Assembly (NCBI GenBank): GCA_903944895.1
Contig: CAJATL010000015.1
Span: 1 to 33,744, forward strand
DNA from: an uncultured Bacteroidota bacterium
Lineage (GTDB): Bacteria > Bacteroidota > Bacteroidia > Bacteroidales > 4484-276
Reading direction: 5' to 3'
Length of the DNA: 33,744 nt
Under the pieces are notes generated by a model. The model was not told where the DNA came from. It saw only the letters and a list, made by a program, of their open reading frames with translations, and ran no database searches. Both the position numbers and the translations under genes were made by a program. Shown piece by piece: positions 13,688 to 28,230 of this stretch (positions are counted from its first letter, which is position 1; every line of letters begins with the position of its first letter).

Positions 13688-14728
13688 TTACCTCAAAATA
13701 CTGTCAGCATGTTGAATCAGCCTTTCCGGAATTATCCAGTTTTCTTTCAGGTTTTTCAATGCATTAAGATTTATAAATAGTTTTTCAGGAACCACGTTTT
13801 CGATAGGGATTTCGGAAGGCTTTTTTCCTTCGAGTATATCCGCAGCAATATTACCGCCAGCCAGTCCCACTTCATAATAATTAGCTCCCAATCCAAACAA
13901 AGCACCTTTTTTGGCATGTTCAGGATCGTTACAAAAAACCGGAATTTTACCATTTTGGCCGGCTTTAACCATCAGATCAAAAGCTAGTTCCACTGTGTTG
14001 TCGCCACCAATCCAGAGCGCCTGAACGCCTCTGGCAACCAGTGAATTTGAGACTTCCAGCACGGAGGTGGTGTTTTCGACACTTGCTTCCAGTAATTCGA
14101 TGCCAAGGCTGTCGCAAACCTTACGCGCAATCATAACACAAGCCTCGGAGCAGCTTTCATGGTTGCACCAGGGAACCCCAAGTTTTTTCAAACCAGGGTT
14201 TATTTGCAGGGCAATCAGGATGGCATCTTCGACAGGTTGAAAGGTCCCAAGCCCTGCCAGATGTTCAGGCCTCAATTCCGGATGTTCCCTCTCAAGCCCG
14301 ACACCGGAGCGAAAAGGGTCGGTAACGGCCGCAAAAACATGGATCACCTCTCCGTTTTTGTTGGCATTCGCCATCACCTGGAGTGCGGGAGTGCTGGCAG
14401 TAAGGACAATGTCAAATTTTTTGTTGATGATTTCCTTTGCGATGGTGTTGGCTGTAGGCAGATCGTTTTCGGCACAATAACGGGTAAGCCGGATGTTTTT
14501 CCCATCGTTAAACCCTCTCTGCGAAAGGCCATCAATAAATCCACGCTCCGTAATGTCGAGCAGCGGACGTGACGAAAACTTAAAGACGGCAATATTTTTA
14601 TAGCCCGACTTACCGGTTTGTTTACCTGGCAAATCCGAGAGCAGTAAAATACCCGAAACAAGCAATAACAGCAGGATTCCCAGCCAGATTCCCTTGATTG
14701 GTGAGGTAAATTTTTCAAGATTTCGCAT
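13688..14728 (-). CDS. ABC transporter substrate-binding protein (pfam04392/COG2984 type), divergent
   Basis: 346 aa. An N-terminal hydrophobic helix (GIWLGILLLLLVSGILLLS) probably anchors it in the inner membrane; no lipobox Cys is seen. The rest has the periplasmic binding fold of the ABC_sub_bind family: YKNIAVFKFSSRPLLD, FDIVLTASTPALQVMANAN, VFAAVTDPFRSGVGL, VQALWIGGDNTVE. Proteins of this family serve COG2984/COG4120/COG1101 importers, one of which (TrpXYZ) takes up tryptophan; the ligand here is unknown. It is transcribed away from a second, different member at 14841, and no permease lies on its own side, so the two may share one transporter. A TATTTTTG -7 element lies just upstream. 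Confidence 0.85.
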   Translation of the reverse strand: MRNLEKFTSPIKGIWLGILLLLLVSGILLLSDLPGKQTGKSGYKNIAVFKFSSRPLLDITERGFIDGLSQRGFNDGKNIRLTRYCAENDLPTANTIAKEIINKKFDIVLTASTPALQVMANANKNGEVIHVFAAVTDPFRSGVGLEREHPELRPEHLAGLGTFQPVEDAILIALQINPGLKKLGVPWCNHESCSEACVMIARKVCDSLGIELLEASVENTTSVLEVSNSLVARGVQALWIGGDNTVELAFDLMVKAGQNGKIPVFCNDPEHAKKGALFGLGANYYEVGLAGGNIAADILEGKKPSEIPIENVVPEKLFINLNALKNLKENWIIPERLIQHADSILR

Positions 14729-14840: not shown

Positions 14841-15896
14841 ATGGCATTTTCGATTAAACCACTTTCGCGTGGATTTGGGCTGCTCTTTCTGGTTGCCCTT
14901 GTTTTGCTGATATCCGATTTAAGCAACCGGAATAATGAAGTGAAAAACAAACCTGTAAACATTCAGTCAGGCGCTGATCAGGCTTTCAGGCCGGCACAAA
15001 AACTCAGGTTAGCATTGATTCAATACAGCGATGCACCCATTTCGGAACAAACCCTCGAAGGAATTCTTGCCGGCCTTGAAGAAAACGGCCTGGTAAAAAA
15101 TACGGATTATGACCTGGATATTTCAAATGCACAGGGTGATGTAGGCACCTTGAACAGCATTTTCGACGCTGTAAAATCAACCAAATATGATCTGATTTTC
15201 GTTTCTTCGACGCCAACTTTACAGGTTGCTATTCGCAAAATTACAGATACTCCCGTTGTTTTCACAACCGTTGCCGATCCTGTGAAAGCTGGTGCCGGAA
15301 CAGATTTTGAGAATCATCTTGCAAATATCACAGGAATTTCGACAACGGGCGCCTATCCGGAAATGGCAGACCTGGTGATGAAAATTTTGCCCGGAACAAA
15401 GGTCATTGGAACGCTCTATTCGCCGGGAGAAGCGAACTCGGTAGTAAACCGGGATGCGTTGGAAAAAACTGCTGTCTCTCAAGGCCTCCGGCTTATCTCG
15501 GTTCCCGTTAATTCGAGTTCCGAAACCACCGACGCAGCACTTTCGTTGTGCTCCCAAAACATCGAAATTGTAGTTCAAATCGTGGATAATCTAACTTCGG
15601 CCTCATTTTCATCGATCCTCAAAGTTGCTACCAAGGCAAAAATTCCTGTGTTTGGTTTTGTCGAATCGCAGGTTAGCGATGGTGCTGTTGCTGCCGTTTC
15701 GCGGGATTATGTGCAGGCGGGCAAAGATGCAGTGAGGCTTGCGGTAAGGATTTTCAGAGGAGAGAATCCCAAAAATATCCCGTTCGAATATGTTTCGAAA
15801 ACAAACCTTGTCATCAATAAACTTGCTGCGGCTAAGGCCGGAATAAGCATTCCAGCCGAAATTTTAGAAAAAGCTGATAAAATCATTACCGAATGA
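14841..15896 (+). CDS. ABC transporter substrate-binding protein (pfam04392/COG2984 type)
   Basis: 351 aa from ATG 14841. The frame opens 23 codons earlier, but that part is not signal-like and the putative promoter lies inside it. An N-terminal membrane helix (FGLLFLVALVLLISDLS) is followed by the binding-protein fold: KLRLALIQYSDAPISEQTL, YDLIFVSSTPTLQVAIRKIT, PVVFTTVADPVKAGAGTDFE, IPVFGFVESQVSDGAV. The STPTLQVA and TVADPVKAG segments parallel those of the divergent protein at 13688. It captures a small solute, possibly an amino acid or other organic molecule, for the permease and ATPase downstream. It overlaps the STAS gene by 4 nt (ATGA), so the two products are coupled. Confidence 0.87.
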   Translation: MAFSIKPLSRGFGLLFLVALVLLISDLSNRNNEVKNKPVNIQSGADQAFRPAQKLRLALIQYSDAPISEQTLEGILAGLEENGLVKNTDYDLDISNAQGDVGTLNSIFDAVKSTKYDLIFVSSTPTLQVAIRKITDTPVVFTTVADPVKAGAGTDFENHLANITGISTTGAYPEMADLVMKILPGTKVIGTLYSPGEANSVVNRDALEKTAVSQGLRLISVPVNSSSETTDAALSLCSQNIEIVVQIVDNLTSASFSSILKVATKAKIPVFGFVESQVSDGAVAAVSRDYVQAGKDAVRLAVRIFRGENPKNIPFEYVSKTNLVINKLAAAKAGISIPAEILEKADKIITE

Positions 15897-17134
15897 AAGA
15901 TAAATTAGAAATTAAGAAAGTTGACCACGGGCATTATCTCACCATCGTCCTCGATGGCAGGGTTGACGGACATTGGTCGGGTTTTTTAAACGATGCCATC
16001 ACCGATGAAATCCGCAATGGTTTTTATAATATTGTGCTCGATTTTGGTGGTGTCGATTACCTGAGTTCTGACGGAATACGCGTGCTTGTGAAGTTTTACA
16101 AAGAACTCAAAAAAGTGAATGGCTCCTTTTATCTGACCGAAGTTTCGGAAAGTGTGCAGACGATCATCAATTTGGTTGGACTGCAAGATCTGATGAAGGA
16201 GAGAGTGGACGACACACCAGCCCGGGAAACCAGCGCAAAAACCATTGCACGCGACAGCTTTTTGTTTGTGATGGAACAAAATCAGGCGAATGAAACAATC
16301 ACACTAAAGTTAAGCGGTGATCCTGAGAAAATTCATTCGAAGGATTTTTCGGTTTCTGATGTTAAAACAGCATTTTTTGATGGACAGAATTTTGGCATCG
16401 GGCTGGGTGCGATAAGCAGCGAAAATGCCGATGCTCTTTCGAGAATGGGCGAGTTTGTGGGACCTGGCAATGCGGTGGCCTATCTTCCCACCGATGGCAC
16501 CAACAGCCCCGATTACTCGCTAAAAACCGGAAATCTCATCCCCGAAATCAGGTATTTGTACGGCCTCTTTTTTAACGGGAGTTTTACCGGTAATTTCAGA
16601 TTCGATCCTCAAACAGCGGGCGAATCCATCAAACTCAGCCGCATTGTCGAAAATCTGTTGGATTTTACTGGTTTCTCCACCCTGGCTTTGGTGATGATTG
16701 CGGAAACATCAGGATTGGTCGGCGTTTCGTTAAGCAAAGCACCTGGTCAAAAACCGGATACATCCTTATTTGGTTTTCCGCAGGTTCGGGATGGGATAAA
16801 TTTTACCATCGAACCGGCACACAGCAAAATGCTGACAATAACAGTGGGCGTAGCCTCACGCAAAGCGGAAAGTTCACTTCTAAAATTTTGCCGGCCGCTG
16901 CATAAAAACAACGGAACTATCGGTCATTTTCATACCGCGGTTTTCAATTTCCGTTTGCTCAAAAAAAGCTGCCTCGACCTTCAGGAAACCATTCAAAATA
17001 TTTTCGAAAATGAGCATCTCTACGAGGTCATGCACCTGATCAACGATGAGCGGGAAGCCGTTGGAACCGGCGAAAGCGAATTTTTTCACGGCACCTGCTG
17101 GGTTGGCGAAGTAAAAGAAATTGTAACAAGTTAA
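15893..17134 (+). CDS. STAS-domain protein with large uncharacterised C-terminal domain
   Basis: 413 aa, cytoplasmic. Residues 1-108 form a STAS (anti-sigma antagonist) domain: LTIVLDGRVDGHWSGFLNDA, IVLDFGGVDYLSSDGIRVLV. The residue before the conserved Gly is Asp60, where phosphorylated members have Ser. Residues about 120-413 form a second domain not recognised: GIGLGAISSENADALSRMGE, GNAVAYLPTDGT, GHFHTAVFNFRLLKK. It overlaps the substrate-binding gene by 4 nt and precedes the permease by 10 nt, in the middle of the transporter operon. STAS domains act in some transporters (SulP tails; MlaB on the MlaFE ABC complex), so a regulatory or structural role on this importer is likely. An anti-sigma role is possible, but no kinase or phosphatase is near. 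Confidence 0.8.
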   Translation: MKDKLEIKKVDHGHYLTIVLDGRVDGHWSGFLNDAITDEIRNGFYNIVLDFGGVDYLSSDGIRVLVKFYKELKKVNGSFYLTEVSESVQTIINLVGLQDLMKERVDDTPARETSAKTIARDSFLFVMEQNQANETITLKLSGDPEKIHSKDFSVSDVKTAFFDGQNFGIGLGAISSENADALSRMGEFVGPGNAVAYLPTDGTNSPDYSLKTGNLIPEIRYLYGLFFNGSFTGNFRFDPQTAGESIKLSRIVENLLDFTGFSTLALVMIAETSGLVGVSLSKAPGQKPDTSLFGFPQVRDGINFTIEPAHSKMLTITVGVASRKAESSLLKFCRPLHKNNGTIGHFHTAVFNFRLLKKSCLDLQETIQNIFENEHLYEVMHLINDEREAVGTGESEFFHGTCWVGEVKEIVTS

Positions 17135-17144
17135 TTCTAAAATC

Positions 17145-18086
17145 ATGACTTTACTCATCGGTTCTTTAACAATCGGATTAATCCTGGCACTGTTGGCGCT
17201 TGGGGTGTTTATCAGTTTCAGGATTTTTAATTTCCCGGATATCACCGTGGAAGGTTCGGTAACTTTTGGGGCTTCCATTGCTGCTGCACTCATCGCAACC
17301 GGCTGGAATCCGCTGTTTGCAACGGTACTGGCATTTTTTGGAGGTATGCTTGCCGGGGCAGTAACGGGAATTCTTCATACCAAATTTAAAATTAACGGCC
17401 TGCTGGCAGGAATTCTGGTGATGACTTCGCTGTATTCGATAAACCTGCATGTGATGGGCAAAAGCAATATTCCGCTAATGTCGGGAGTAACCCTCATTTC
17501 GTGGTTTGAAGGCTGGACCCCTGCATTTTTTGGAGGCACTGCCGAAGTAAATGTGCTGGGATGGATGGTAAATGGTGCCGACATCATTGTGATGTTTTGC
17601 ATGTTTATCATCACCATATTTTTTGGAATTCTGTTGTTTTGGTTTTTCAGAACCGACATTGGAACGGCCATGCGGGCAACTGGAAATAACCCGCAAATGA
17701 TTCGTGCTTTGGGTGTAAATACGCAGGCGATGATTATTCTCGGACTTGCACTTTCCAACGGGATGATTGCGGTTTCGGGTGCTTTGCTCGCCCAATACCA
17801 AGGTTTTGCTGATGTTCAGATGGGCATCGGCATGCTGGTCTGGGGGTTGGCGAGTGTGATTATCGGTGAAGCGCTGATCACGAAAAAAACGCTCGGATTC
17901 ATCATTACCGGGGCAATTATGGGTTCGCTGCTTTTCAGATTACTGGTGGCTATCGCGCTGAGATGGGGCATGAATCCCAACGACCTCAAACTGATCACGG
18001 CTGTTTTCGTTTTCATCGCACTGATCTTACCCGGATTTATCGAAAAGACAAAGAAAACAAAGCTGTCGGTGAATATTAAAATGTGA
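17145..18086 (+). CDS. ABC transporter permease (COG4120 type)
   Basis: 313 aa integral membrane protein with about eight to nine hydrophobic helices, of the branched-chain/ribose permease superfamily (BPD_transp_2). The start MTLLIGSLTIGLILALLALG, the FNFPDITVEGSVTFGASIAA segment and the loop FRTDIGTAMRATGNNPQMIR ALGV (the coupling-helix region) are typical. It forms the channel for the solute bound by the upstream binding protein and is energised by the ATPase 40 nt downstream. The start lies 10 nt after the STAS gene. Confidence 0.9.
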   Translation: MTLLIGSLTIGLILALLALGVFISFRIFNFPDITVEGSVTFGASIAAALIATGWNPLFATVLAFFGGMLAGAVTGILHTKFKINGLLAGILVMTSLYSINLHVMGKSNIPLMSGVTLISWFEGWTPAFFGGTAEVNVLGWMVNGADIIVMFCMFIITIFFGILLFWFFRTDIGTAMRATGNNPQMIRALGVNTQAMIILGLALSNGMIAVSGALLAQYQGFADVQMGIGMLVWGLASVIIGEALITKKTLGFIITGAIMGSLLFRLLVAIALRWGMNPNDLKLITAVFVFIALILPGFIEKTKKTKLSVNIKM

Positions 18087-18126
18087 GTTTTGGATGTTAA
18101 GCGTCAAATCGAAAAGCAAACAGGAA

Positions 18127-18939
18127 ATGTTAAAAATCGAAAATCTATATAAAACCTTTAATGCAGGCACTGCCAACGAGGTAAAAGCGCTGCAGGGAGT
18201 GAGTTTTGAGTTGTCAGAAGGCAGCTTTGTTTGTGTTTTGGGAACCAACGGTTCGGGCAAATCAACCTTGCTGAACGCTGTTGCAGGAACCTTTTATCCG
18301 GATGAAGGCAAGATTTTTCTGGATGGCGAAAACGTAACACACTGGCCTGAACATAGGAGAGCACAGCATATTGGAAGGGTTTTCCAGAATCCTTTCAGCG
18401 GCACCGCTCCCGATATGACCATTGCCGAAAATCTTGTCATGGCAGCAAAGCGCGGAAAACCACGTGGGCTGGGCTGGGCGCTGAACGAAAAGTACCTAGG
18501 CGAATTCCATGACCGGGTAAAACCGCTAAACATGAAGCTGGAAGATCGTCTTGATAATCCCATCGGAAAACTCTCGGGTGGGCAAAGGCAGGCTTTAACG
18601 CTGCTGATGGCAAGCTGGCTGAAACCAAAATTGCTGTTGCTCGACGAACATACCGCCGCCCTCGACCCGAAAACTGCCGCCAAAGTCATCCAGCTTACCG
18701 AGGAAGTGATCACAAAAGATAATCTGACAACGTTGATGGTGACTCATTCGATGCAACAGGCCGTAAACCTGGGCGACCGCATTTTGATGATGCACAACGG
18801 AAAAATTGCTTTCGACTTTTCGGGTTCTGATAAGAAACGGCTCAAGGTAAACGACCTGCTGGCTTTGTTTGATGAAATCCGTCGCAAAGAACAAATTGAT
18901 GCCTCCGTTTCGGAATTGCTGGTGAAAAGCTATGTGTAA
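18127..18939 (+). CDS. ABC transporter ATP-binding protein (COG1101 type)
   Basis: 270 aa from ATG 18127. The frame opens 11 codons earlier at 18094, but family members start MLKIENL.KTFNAGT.NEVKAL, which favours the internal Met. Walker A is GTNGSGKST at residues 39-47, the signature motif is LSGGQRQAL, Walker B is LLLLDEHTAALD, and the switch His is in MVTHSMQQ. It is the nucleotide-binding subunit for the permease at 17145, completing a four-gene set: binding protein, STAS protein, permease, ATPase. COG1101 ATPases with COG4120 permeases serve TrpXYZ-like systems; the substrate here cannot be read. Confidence 0.92.
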   Translation: MLKIENLYKTFNAGTANEVKALQGVSFELSEGSFVCVLGTNGSGKSTLLNAVAGTFYPDEGKIFLDGENVTHWPEHRRAQHIGRVFQNPFSGTAPDMTIAENLVMAAKRGKPRGLGWALNEKYLGEFHDRVKPLNMKLEDRLDNPIGKLSGGQRQALTLLMASWLKPKLLLLDEHTAALDPKTAAKVIQLTEEVITKDNLTTLMVTHSMQQAVNLGDRILMMHNGKIAFDFSGSDKKRLKVNDLLALFDEIRRKEQIDASVSELLVKSYV

Positions 18940-28158: not shown

Positions 28159-28230
28159 GGCCCCATAGTTCAATGGATAGAATTTCAGATTCCGGTTCTG
28201 ACGATATGGGTTCGAATCCCTTTGGGGTCA
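28159..28230 (+). tRNA. tRNA-Arg (anticodon CCG)
   Basis: A 72-nt cloverleaf. The acceptor stem GGCCCCA pairs with TGGGGTC (one G-T pair), with discriminator A at 28230. The D stem is GTTC with GAAT. The anticodon stem TCAGA/TCTGA encloses the loop TTCCGGT, giving anticodon CCG, which reads the Arg codon CGG. The T arm contains GGGTTCGAATCCC with one T-T mismatch below it. CCA is not encoded. Intergrative elements often use such genes, and defence-gene remnants begin about 330 bp downstream; no repeat of the tRNA 3' end was found inside the window. Confidence 0.92.

Follow-up and report, generated by a model that had tools for sequence, protein, structure and literature searches.

MlaB, the STAS protein of the Mla lipid ABC transporter, is a lone STAS domain of about 100 residues on a transporter family different from the one considered here. 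It is thought to regulate the ATPase of this transporter, and its Thr52, at the position of the phospho-site, is found close to the middle of the contact surface between MlaF and MlaB (PMC7367683). In the partner-switching systems RsbU-RsbV-RsbW and SpoIIE-SpoIIAA-SpoIIAB, a PP2C phosphatase and a HATPase_c_2 kinase are combined with a STAS protein that has a Ser at the phospho-site. The streptococcal tryptophan importer TrpXYZ consists of three co-transcribed genes (PMC9382623) for a binding protein, a permease and an ATPase. The locus described here, from an uncultured Bacteroidota bacterium, resembles the first system in that a STAS protein belongs to an ABC transporter, the third in that its importer genes share one operon, and the second through genes found near the importers of its relatives. 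The window (the whole stretch of 33,744 nucleotides that was analysed) contains the following genes:

13688 to 14728, minus strand: second PF04392 binding protein, 346 aa, divergently transcribed (Pfam, 166.2 bits)
14841 to 15896, plus strand: PF04392 substrate-binding protein (SBP) with an N-terminal membrane anchor (Pfam, 186 bits)
15893 to 17134, plus strand: 413-aa protein with a STAS domain and a C-terminal domain (CTD), cytoplasmic, without transmembrane segments predicted from hydrophobicity
17145 to 18086, plus strand: permease (PF02653; Pfam, 92.2 bits)
18127 to 18939, plus strand: ABC ATPase (PF00005; Pfam, 105.7 bits) with Walker A and LSGGQ

As an earlier sequence-only reading had described, the gene for the 413-aa protein with its STAS and large second domain lies between the binding-protein gene, which it overlaps by 4 nt (15893-15896), and the permease gene, which follows after 10 nt (17135-17144); both distances are read directly from the sequence. 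The binding protein starts at 14841, the same start as in the close relative L038. The ATPase reading frame opens at 18094, but its likely start is 18127, the position to which the beginning of its 270-aa relatives corresponds. Relatives of the operon proteins are grouped in all 14 other loci fetched for the CTD (with the ATPase gene lost at the contig end in L020 and shortened in L027, and with SBPs and permease forming one fusion protein in L032), which shows that the genes are real. Since the permease has eight hydrophobic segments and the ATPase carries both of its motifs, the transporter looks functional.

The SBP, PF02653 permease and ATPase form a single operon-like run, as is characteristic of the PF04392 importer family. 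At this family level the label 'TrpXYZ-like', given by the same reading, holds, but not at the level of the TrpX equivalog: NF041285 scores 174.4 and 172.4 bits on the two binding proteins (cut-off 390), and on these scores an identity as tryptophan importer was rejected. Unlike TrpXYZ, the operon has a fourth gene inserted, and many of its relatives have tandem or permease-fused SBPs (tandem in L019, L020, L024, L027, L028 and L029; three SBP domains in L031).

The divergent second PF04392 gene had not been reported in the earlier reading. Its product has a hydrophobic segment at residues 13-31 (an N-terminal membrane anchor), and relatives are found beside the operon in L022 (59% identity) and L038 (79%) and after the ATPase gene in G164 (51%). 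Contig C100 has one further, third match to PF04392 (36.6 bits), with no genes of the operon in its surroundings. An Rfam scan of the window yielded one tRNA only.

The STAS-protein gene is located directly upstream of the importer permease gene in 19 of 19 homologues (not all from independent genomes: L027 and L029 share one genus, as do L026 and L030). In a sample of the order (198 genomes; here as in the other genome searches, scores were given only to candidates from a loose first look) the CTD is present in 15 genomes and a permease of at least 50% identity in 15, and these are the same 15. Position and co-occurrence together rule out a chance neighbour and strongly support the STAS protein as a constant fourth component of the importer; the opposite pattern, homologues occurring mostly without the transporter, was looked for and not found. 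Genome G164, counted as domain-free, is probably a missed case, since its contig, which has an ATPase of 74% identity, begins inside the operon. In the phylum sample, by contrast, the STAS protein is missing in 17 of 21 genomes with a permease of at least 43% identity, which makes it a lineage-specific add-on to related importers. The proposed 'four-part transporter type' therefore has to be qualified. No relative of the protein was found on viral contigs, and the four plasmid records that matched all did so through the STAS part only.

The STAS domain has the following features:

15920 to 16207, plus strand: STAS domain (residues 10-105), by sequence nearest SpoIIAA
16067 to 16069, plus strand: Ser59, aligned with the phospho-Ser of SpoIIAA/RsbV, Ser in 19 of 19 homologues
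16070 to 16072, plus strand: Asp60, next to the phospho-site and variable (Asp in two of the 19 homologues)

The domain is recognized by PF01740 (59.2 bits, cut-off 22.6) and by the TIGR00377 superfamily model (66.3 bits, cut-off 53.45). The scores of the SpoIIAA equivalog TIGR02886 (51.0 bits, cut-off 114.75) and of the MlaB model NF033618 (20.5 bits, cut-off 90) remain below their limits, and a SulP/SLC26 protein is not indicated either, there being no hydrophobic membrane segment and no Pfam domain besides STAS. The best phmmer match is SpoIIAA, and the top Foldseek rows are SpoIIAA and RsbV from kinase complexes; MlaB structures rank under both in the structure comparisons. In the VIA comparison the modelled domain aligned to SpoIIAA (1thn_B) with Z 15.8, rmsd 1.8 and 104 aligned residues, a match nearly equalled by the STAS domain of SLC26A11 (Z 14.7).

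When the 413-aa protein is aligned residue by residue to SpoIIAA (1th8), the DSSG motif has its Asp opposite Ser58, its first Ser opposite Ser59 and its second Ser opposite Asp60. The first Ser (Ser58 of SpoIIAA, Ser56 of RsbV) is the phosphorylated one; the 1tid/1til sequence has Ala at this place. The suggestion that Asp60 stands at the usual phospho-Ser position was therefore wrong: alignment and full conservation both point to Ser59, which provides a Ser/Thr at the phosphorylation position. Residue 60 is Ala in 13 homologues, Leu in two, Pro in one, Thr in one and Asp only in the window and its near relative L038, and this variability together with the 1th8 alignment rules out Asp60 as a phospho-site substitute.

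Rsb-type partner-switching genes, absent from the sequence-only reading, were found beside the importers of relatives. At least one is present in 10 of the 19 loci (PP2C in nine, RsbW-like kinase in seven, small STAS in six; all three nearby in six) against none of 17 control loci, at score limits fixed before that run. The controls, whose importers are relatives lacking the STAS gene, were selected as the phylum-sample genomes that combine a permease of at least 43% identity with the absence of a CTD match; they represent few families, the loci are shorter, and the side upstream of the permease is lost at the contig end in L134 and L141. For a selection of loci the domains were verified with Pfam (PP2C as SpoIIE domain, kinase as HATPase_c_2). 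The other nine loci, the window's included, have no partner-switching gene nearby; L019, L020 and L038 lie on contigs of 5.7-10.3 kb. The window's genome has a PP2C (173.2 bits, PF07228) and a kinase (94.6 bits, PF13581) adjacent on contig C247, and its only two PF01740 matches are the 413-aa protein and a small STAS on contig C383. The latter shares 61% identity with the small STAS next to the L021 importer.

Similar tendencies are seen for whole genomes of the order. The kinase profile (A6) reaches at least 140 bits, a limit picked after the lists were seen, in 15 of 15 genomes with the CTD against 12 of 183 without; as seven of the 15 had supplied kinases to this profile, the comparison is cleaner without them, at 8 of 8 against 12 of 183. 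For the small STAS (profile A7, with sequences from six of the 15 genomes) the counts at 130 bits or more, likewise chosen afterwards, are 14 of 15 (G094 missing the limit with 104.7) and 9 of 183. PF07228 (SpoIIE family) is unspecific, occurring in 148 of the 198 genomes (15 of 15 with the CTD, 133 of 183 without). The kinase link loses strength beyond the order: three further CTD-bearing genomes have best scores of 178.7 (G462), 137.7 (G413) and only 105.0 (G393), while the 17 genomes that possess the importer and lack the STAS protein reach 53.3-103.3. The module is also present in genomes lacking a protein of the 413-aa type, for instance beside a nucleotide-cyclase-like gene, and is thus not dedicated to the importer. 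Wherever the module is complete, the locus includes a small STAS as well, and the real partner of the kinase may be this protein.

The sequence-only reading had held that a place beside sigma-factor kinases would argue against a tie to the transporter. RsbW-like kinases are indeed neighbours in the seven loci counted above, but they accompany the transporter, so that the presumed mechanism changes whereas the importer link is kept. In contrast to the Rsb and SpoII systems, an ABC importer goes with the module, and among the scanned neighbours only one linked locus (L041) has a sigma gene, of the ECF type. In L041 and L042 the ATPase gene is followed at a short distance by one for an ECF sigma factor. 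This fits a transcriptional output and leads to an alternative that we consider unlikely, namely that information flows outward: importer and binding proteins would serve as the sensor and the STAS protein would report ligand occupancy or import to the kinase, the output being a sigma factor, a cyclase or another target while transport itself is unregulated. Such a role is consistent with the extra SBP domains in seven loci, with the importer-free module beside a cyclase-like gene, and with the partner-switching systems covered in an excerpt of PMC8256260, which end in sigma factors or other regulators. Yet in the other 17 loci no sigma factor gene was identified among the partly scanned neighbours, and the transporter, as noted, looks functional.

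It might also be argued, from the constant operon position, that the protein is an MlaB-like subunit needed for assembly or stability of the ATPase, without phospho-switching; ATPase stability in the Mla system does require MlaB (PMC7367683). We regard this as very improbable, given the low score of the MlaB model and the rank of MlaB structures behind SpoIIAA and RsbV. Unlike MlaB, the window protein combines a SpoIIAA-like STAS domain and an invariant Ser59 with a second domain of about 300 aa, its gene is frequently linked to kinase and PP2C genes, and related importers manage without it.

This second domain matches no Pfam or NCBIfam family. Its features are:

16229 to 17131, plus strand: C-terminal domain; similar to the ALDC/PPC/PTD012 fold in a low-confidence model that was made for the domain of a relative
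16925 to 16933, plus strand: His345-x-His347, invariant in 19 of 19, candidate metal ligands
17033 to 17035, plus strand: His381, invariant in 19 of 19, candidate third metal ligand

E187 and D207 are invariant as well. With low confidence, the fold predicted for the CTD is the metal fold with three histidines that acetolactate decarboxylase (ALDC) and PTD012 share. The domain model is poor (mean pLDDT 49, pTM 0.60), as is the full-length model in this part; it matches the acetolactate decarboxylase 5yho_A (Z 9.5, rmsd 4.7, 170 aligned), 3htn_A (Z 9.4, rmsd 3.4, 123 aligned) and PTD012 1xcr_A (Z 5.4, rmsd 4.6, 181 aligned; in the range under Z 8, for which the tool gives a warning about common arrangements), with unrelated rows at Z 3.9 and below. 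By title, 12 of the first 17 rows belong to the ALDC/PPC/AF0104/PTD012 group, and the remaining five, of which two are titled 'putative DNA binding' and three hypothetical, are PPC-like; ALDC, PPC/DUF296, AF0104 and PTD012 are grouped together in one wider fold. Sequence searches give no support for this fold: ALDC (PF03306), DUF1907 (PF08925) and PPC/DUF296 (PF03479) do not appear at E<=10 in 15 members or five distant ones, in a search whose HMMER filters drop weak matches. PF08925 is given for DUF1907 in PMC12435205, where the relation between ALDC and PTD012 is also stated.

Other origins of the CTD were considered. A degenerate PP2C, kinase, STAS or SBP finds no support (profile-comparison probability <1% each), profile comparison reveals no internal repeat, and a FIST-type sensory domain, still conceivable, gave no match at E<=10 after the same filters. 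No weight was given to single weak matches, namely Csm5 (E 0.0043, in 1 of 15 members), three other NCBIfam families (E 0.079-0.19), Pfam families (two at E 0.079-0.087, two at 0.043-0.13) and two unrelated PDB chains (E about 1).

As a further alternative, the CTD could be a zinc-dependent decarboxylase or hydrolase-like enzyme acting on the imported compound at the membrane, with the STAS domain serving only to tether or tune it. The ALDC and PTD012 matches and the five invariant residues (H345, H347, H381, E187, D207) are in line with this, and PTD012, in which three conserved His bind Zn, has been identified as a beta-ketogulonate decarboxylase (PMC12435205). Nonetheless we find an enzyme quite unlikely, in view of the low-confidence model and the PTD012 row under Z 8; moreover, a common fold is no proof of activity. 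PPC proteins of this fold are not known to be enzymes. The third His follows after roughly 10-12 residues in ALDC and PTD012 but 34 residues after the HxH here, and the CTD further differs from the whole group by its STAS fusion and the lack of a detectable sequence relation.

The reading that we tentatively prefer, a little short of calling it probable, is that the 413-aa protein acts as a dedicated cytoplasmic regulatory subunit of the PF04392-type importer, with a phospho-switched STAS domain and a metabolite-linked CTD. An RsbW-like kinase would phosphorylate Ser59 of the SpoIIAA/RsbV-type domain, and a sensor-controlled PP2C phosphatase would dephosphorylate it. In one phospho-state the kinase would hold or release the STAS domain; in the other, the domain would engage the importer ATPase or permease and alter its activity, as MlaB engages MlaF. 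The CTD would sense or process a small molecule of the cytoplasm, for which the imported compound or a product are plausible candidates. Of all this, the identity of the genes, the constant place in the operon, the co-occurrence, the link to partner-switching genes and the conservation of Ser59 and of the three His are observed; Ser59 phosphorylation, importer contact, the direction of control, metal binding and the ligand are the elements that we infer. A fuller version, possible though doubtful, is partner switching with ABC importer activity as output: its sensor would be either a Cache-PP2C or a histidine kinase whose target is a receiver-PP2C, followed by the RsbW-like kinase and the importer-bound STAS subunit. 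The latter would also read a cytoplasmic metabolite through its decarboxylase-fold zinc domain, so that uptake would be under dual, external and internal, control without transcription.

The MlaFB paper describes the regulation of ABC transporters at the post-translational level as poorly understood, and whether phosphorylation switches the STAS subunit MlaB is left open there (PMC7367683). Among the best matches of a limited literature collection, no title describes a partner-switched ABC importer. Here the genomes of many relatives link an importer STAS subunit with a kinase and a phosphatase that match it, so that the question of phospho-switching can be tested directly. A transporter would be added to the possible targets of partner switching, and for a family-less domain there would be a fold hypothesis, that of the three-His metal fold. 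Overall, some Bacteroidota possess a nutrient importer with an additional cytoplasmic protein that combines a zinc-enzyme-like domain with what looks to be the target of a known type of bacterial phosphorylation switch, and this suggests that signals switch the importer by an as yet undescribed mechanism.

The importer operon of the window, together with the binding-protein gene beside it, comprises:

Window 14841-18939, four adjoining genes on one strand: membrane-anchored PF04392 binding protein, 413-aa STAS protein, PF02653 permease, ABC ATPase
Window 13688-14728, opposite strand to the operon: second PF04392 gene

The four-gene layout claimed by the sequence-only reading, with the STAS gene overlapping the binding-protein gene by 4 nt and ending 10 nt before the permease gene, is borne out by the sequence and by Pfam. 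The observation as a whole holds for layout and junctions, but its placement of Asp60 at the phosphorylated-serine position is wrong: aligned with SpoIIAA, it is Ser59 that matches the phosphorylated residue, the first Ser of DSSG, and Asp60 matches the second. Ser59 is invariant across 19 homologues and residue 60 is variable (Asp in 2 of 19). The STAS domain retains the residue required for a phospho-switch. Since hydrophobicity analysis found no membrane segment in the 413-aa protein, it is best read as cytoplasmic. The window is an entire contig (33,744 bases) of a 7.17-Mb genome, the 424 contigs of which may stem from more than one organism (4.21% contamination); its sole Rfam match is a tRNA gene at 28159-28230. 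A close relative, an uncultured Bacteroidetes MAG (locus L038), has the same gene order, divergent PF04392 gene included, and a C-terminal domain 79% identical to that of the window.

A sequence search with this domain picked out 15 of the 198 order genomes, and a profile search 4 of the 395 phylum genomes, the window's own among these. The resulting set of homologues holds 19 loci, L038 included, with L039 and L040 left out as repeats of L019 and L021, judged by the length of their contigs and their gene layout. The permease gene lies immediately 3' of the STAS gene in all 19; a binding-protein gene immediately precedes the STAS gene in 15, and in four (L032, L041, L042, L043) the permease itself carries fused binding-protein domains. 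The reverse search with the permease gave at least 50% identity in exactly the same 15 order genomes, and only distant matches (25-38%) in four others. The proposed tie between STAS gene and importer is therefore constant, which supports the earlier interpretation in part, its Asp60 argument being lost. In the phylum sample, a permease at least 43% identical occurs in 21 genomes, 4 with the C-terminal domain and 17 without. These 17 control loci yielded neither a STAS gene nor one for the C-terminal domain (upstream side cut off in two), and five, all from one genus, show a plain three-gene operon; hence the STAS protein is a lineage-specific addition to the importer. Four control loci (L131, L132, L133, L141) have another unusual layout within the same importer family, in which the related permease is followed by a protein of 120-141 aa (BLAST finds it receiver-like in three of the four) and one of 770-811 aa whose C-terminal part resembles an ABC ATPase.

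The importer served by the STAS protein often has extra binding-protein domains. Those preceding the STAS gene form a tandem pair in six loci and are single in eight, and L031 carries three; the four permease fusions span 945-1247 aa.

L031 3199-6087: triple binding-protein fusion, PF04392 importer
L032 7069-9912: permease-binding-protein fusion
L041 4795-7632: permease-binding-protein fusion
L042 8212-11049: permease-binding-protein fusion
L043 3034-6777: permease-binding-protein fusion

By Pfam, recurring neighbours are receiver-SpoIIE and Cache-HAMP-SpoIIE phosphatases, sensor histidine kinases, an HATPase_c_2 kinase, a STAS protein of ~108 aa and an NMT1-like binding protein. At fixed score limits, at least one partner-switching gene stands at 10 of 19 loci (kinase 7, small STAS 6, PP2C 9) against 0 of 17 control loci; among the 15 families that the search tables distinguish, 8 include a linked locus, with L038 counted together with the window. 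A kinase profile score of at least 140 bits is reached in 15/15 order genomes with the C-terminal domain versus 12/183 without (Fisher p 1.4e-15, or 3e-9 after dropping the profile-building genomes, both ignoring relatedness). Outside the order the link is weaker: genomes G462, G413 and G393 score 178.7, 137.7 and 105.0 bits, versus 53.3-103.3 in the 17 control genomes. No partner-switching gene was found on the window contig at the fixed limits. Elsewhere in its genome, contig C247 (L059 6767-10195) carries an NMT1-like binding protein, a Cache-SpoIIE phosphatase and an RsbW-like kinase in one run, and the only PF01740 match besides the 413-aa protein lies on contig C383. In genome G164, a contig starting inside the importer operon (L087 24-1876; ATPase 74% identical) continues after the ATPase with a relative of the divergent binding protein (51%) and, beyond it, genes of the NMT1, PP2C, kinase and STAS types.

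The partner-switching module is not exclusive to the importer, since elsewhere its neighbours are genes resembling nucleotide cyclases, a STAND/WD40 gene or genes of zinc ABC transporters. In eight loci (L089, L090, L093, L099, L101-L104) a ~215-aa protein of one BLAST cluster is encoded 3' of the small STAS gene, with an intervening ORF in L102; one of two scanned members exceeds the guanylate-cyclase cut-off. Another BLAST cluster groups ~1040-aa proteins near partner-switching genes; the single member scanned, that of L104, is assigned to nSTAND1-WD40 by Pfam:

L104 8066-11188
L105 7880-11002
L101 3500-6619
L097 1737-4784

The C-terminal domain has no convincing match in Pfam or NCBIfam, and sequence search gave no relative of solved structure. 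A model of the L039 domain alone, from four sequences, was poor (mean pLDDT 49, pTM 0.60). With it, the first 14 Foldseek matches were acetolactate decarboxylases or a similar protein, AF0104, PPC proteins and PPC-like entries titled 'putative DNA binding', at a best E of 2.8e-3, none reaching 0.001. A second structural comparison of this low-confidence model gave 5yho_A (Z 9.5, rmsd 4.7, 170 aligned), 3htn_A (Z 9.4, rmsd 3.4, 123 aligned) and human PTD012, 1xcr_A (Z 5.4, rmsd 4.6, 181 aligned), with unrelated structures from rank 18 on (Z at most 3.9). H345, H347, H381, E187 and D207 are each invariant in 19/19 homologues. H381 sits further along the sequence than the third His of the acetolactate decarboxylase/PTD012 enzymes; a helix is predicted between H345/H347 and H381, where confidence in the model is low. 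PTD012, a relative of acetolactate decarboxylases, is described as binding zinc by three conserved His (PMC12435205). Given these fold matches, this zinc site and the three invariant His, a metal-binding domain of acetolactate decarboxylase/PTD012-type fold is our leading hypothesis, not a result.

The recorded example of an ABC ATPase bearing a STAS protein is MlaB; the authors of that study reported no further STAS-ABC entry in the PDB and did not settle whether MlaB is phosphoregulated (PMC7367683). A STAS review names sigma factor and other regulatory outputs, and the term ABC is absent from its main text (PMC8256260). Within the limited literature collection searched, none of the paper titles listed concerned a partner-switched ABC importer.

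Judged by sequence, the Ser59 switch may control transport, or the importer itself may report outward by way of it. The latter reading stays alive because ECF sigma genes lie close downstream of the ATPase in two loci of the distant subgroup:

L041 3374-3913: ECF sigma factor gene, next to the importer ATPase gene
L042 13034-13573: ECF sigma factor gene, beyond a PAS histidine kinase gene near the importer ATPase gene

The best-supported reading is that the 413-aa protein is a cytoplasmic regulatory subunit of the importer. The STAS domain would be its switchable part, with kinase and phosphatase setting the phospho-state of Ser59, and the C-terminal domain may be its metabolite-sensing or enzymatic part.
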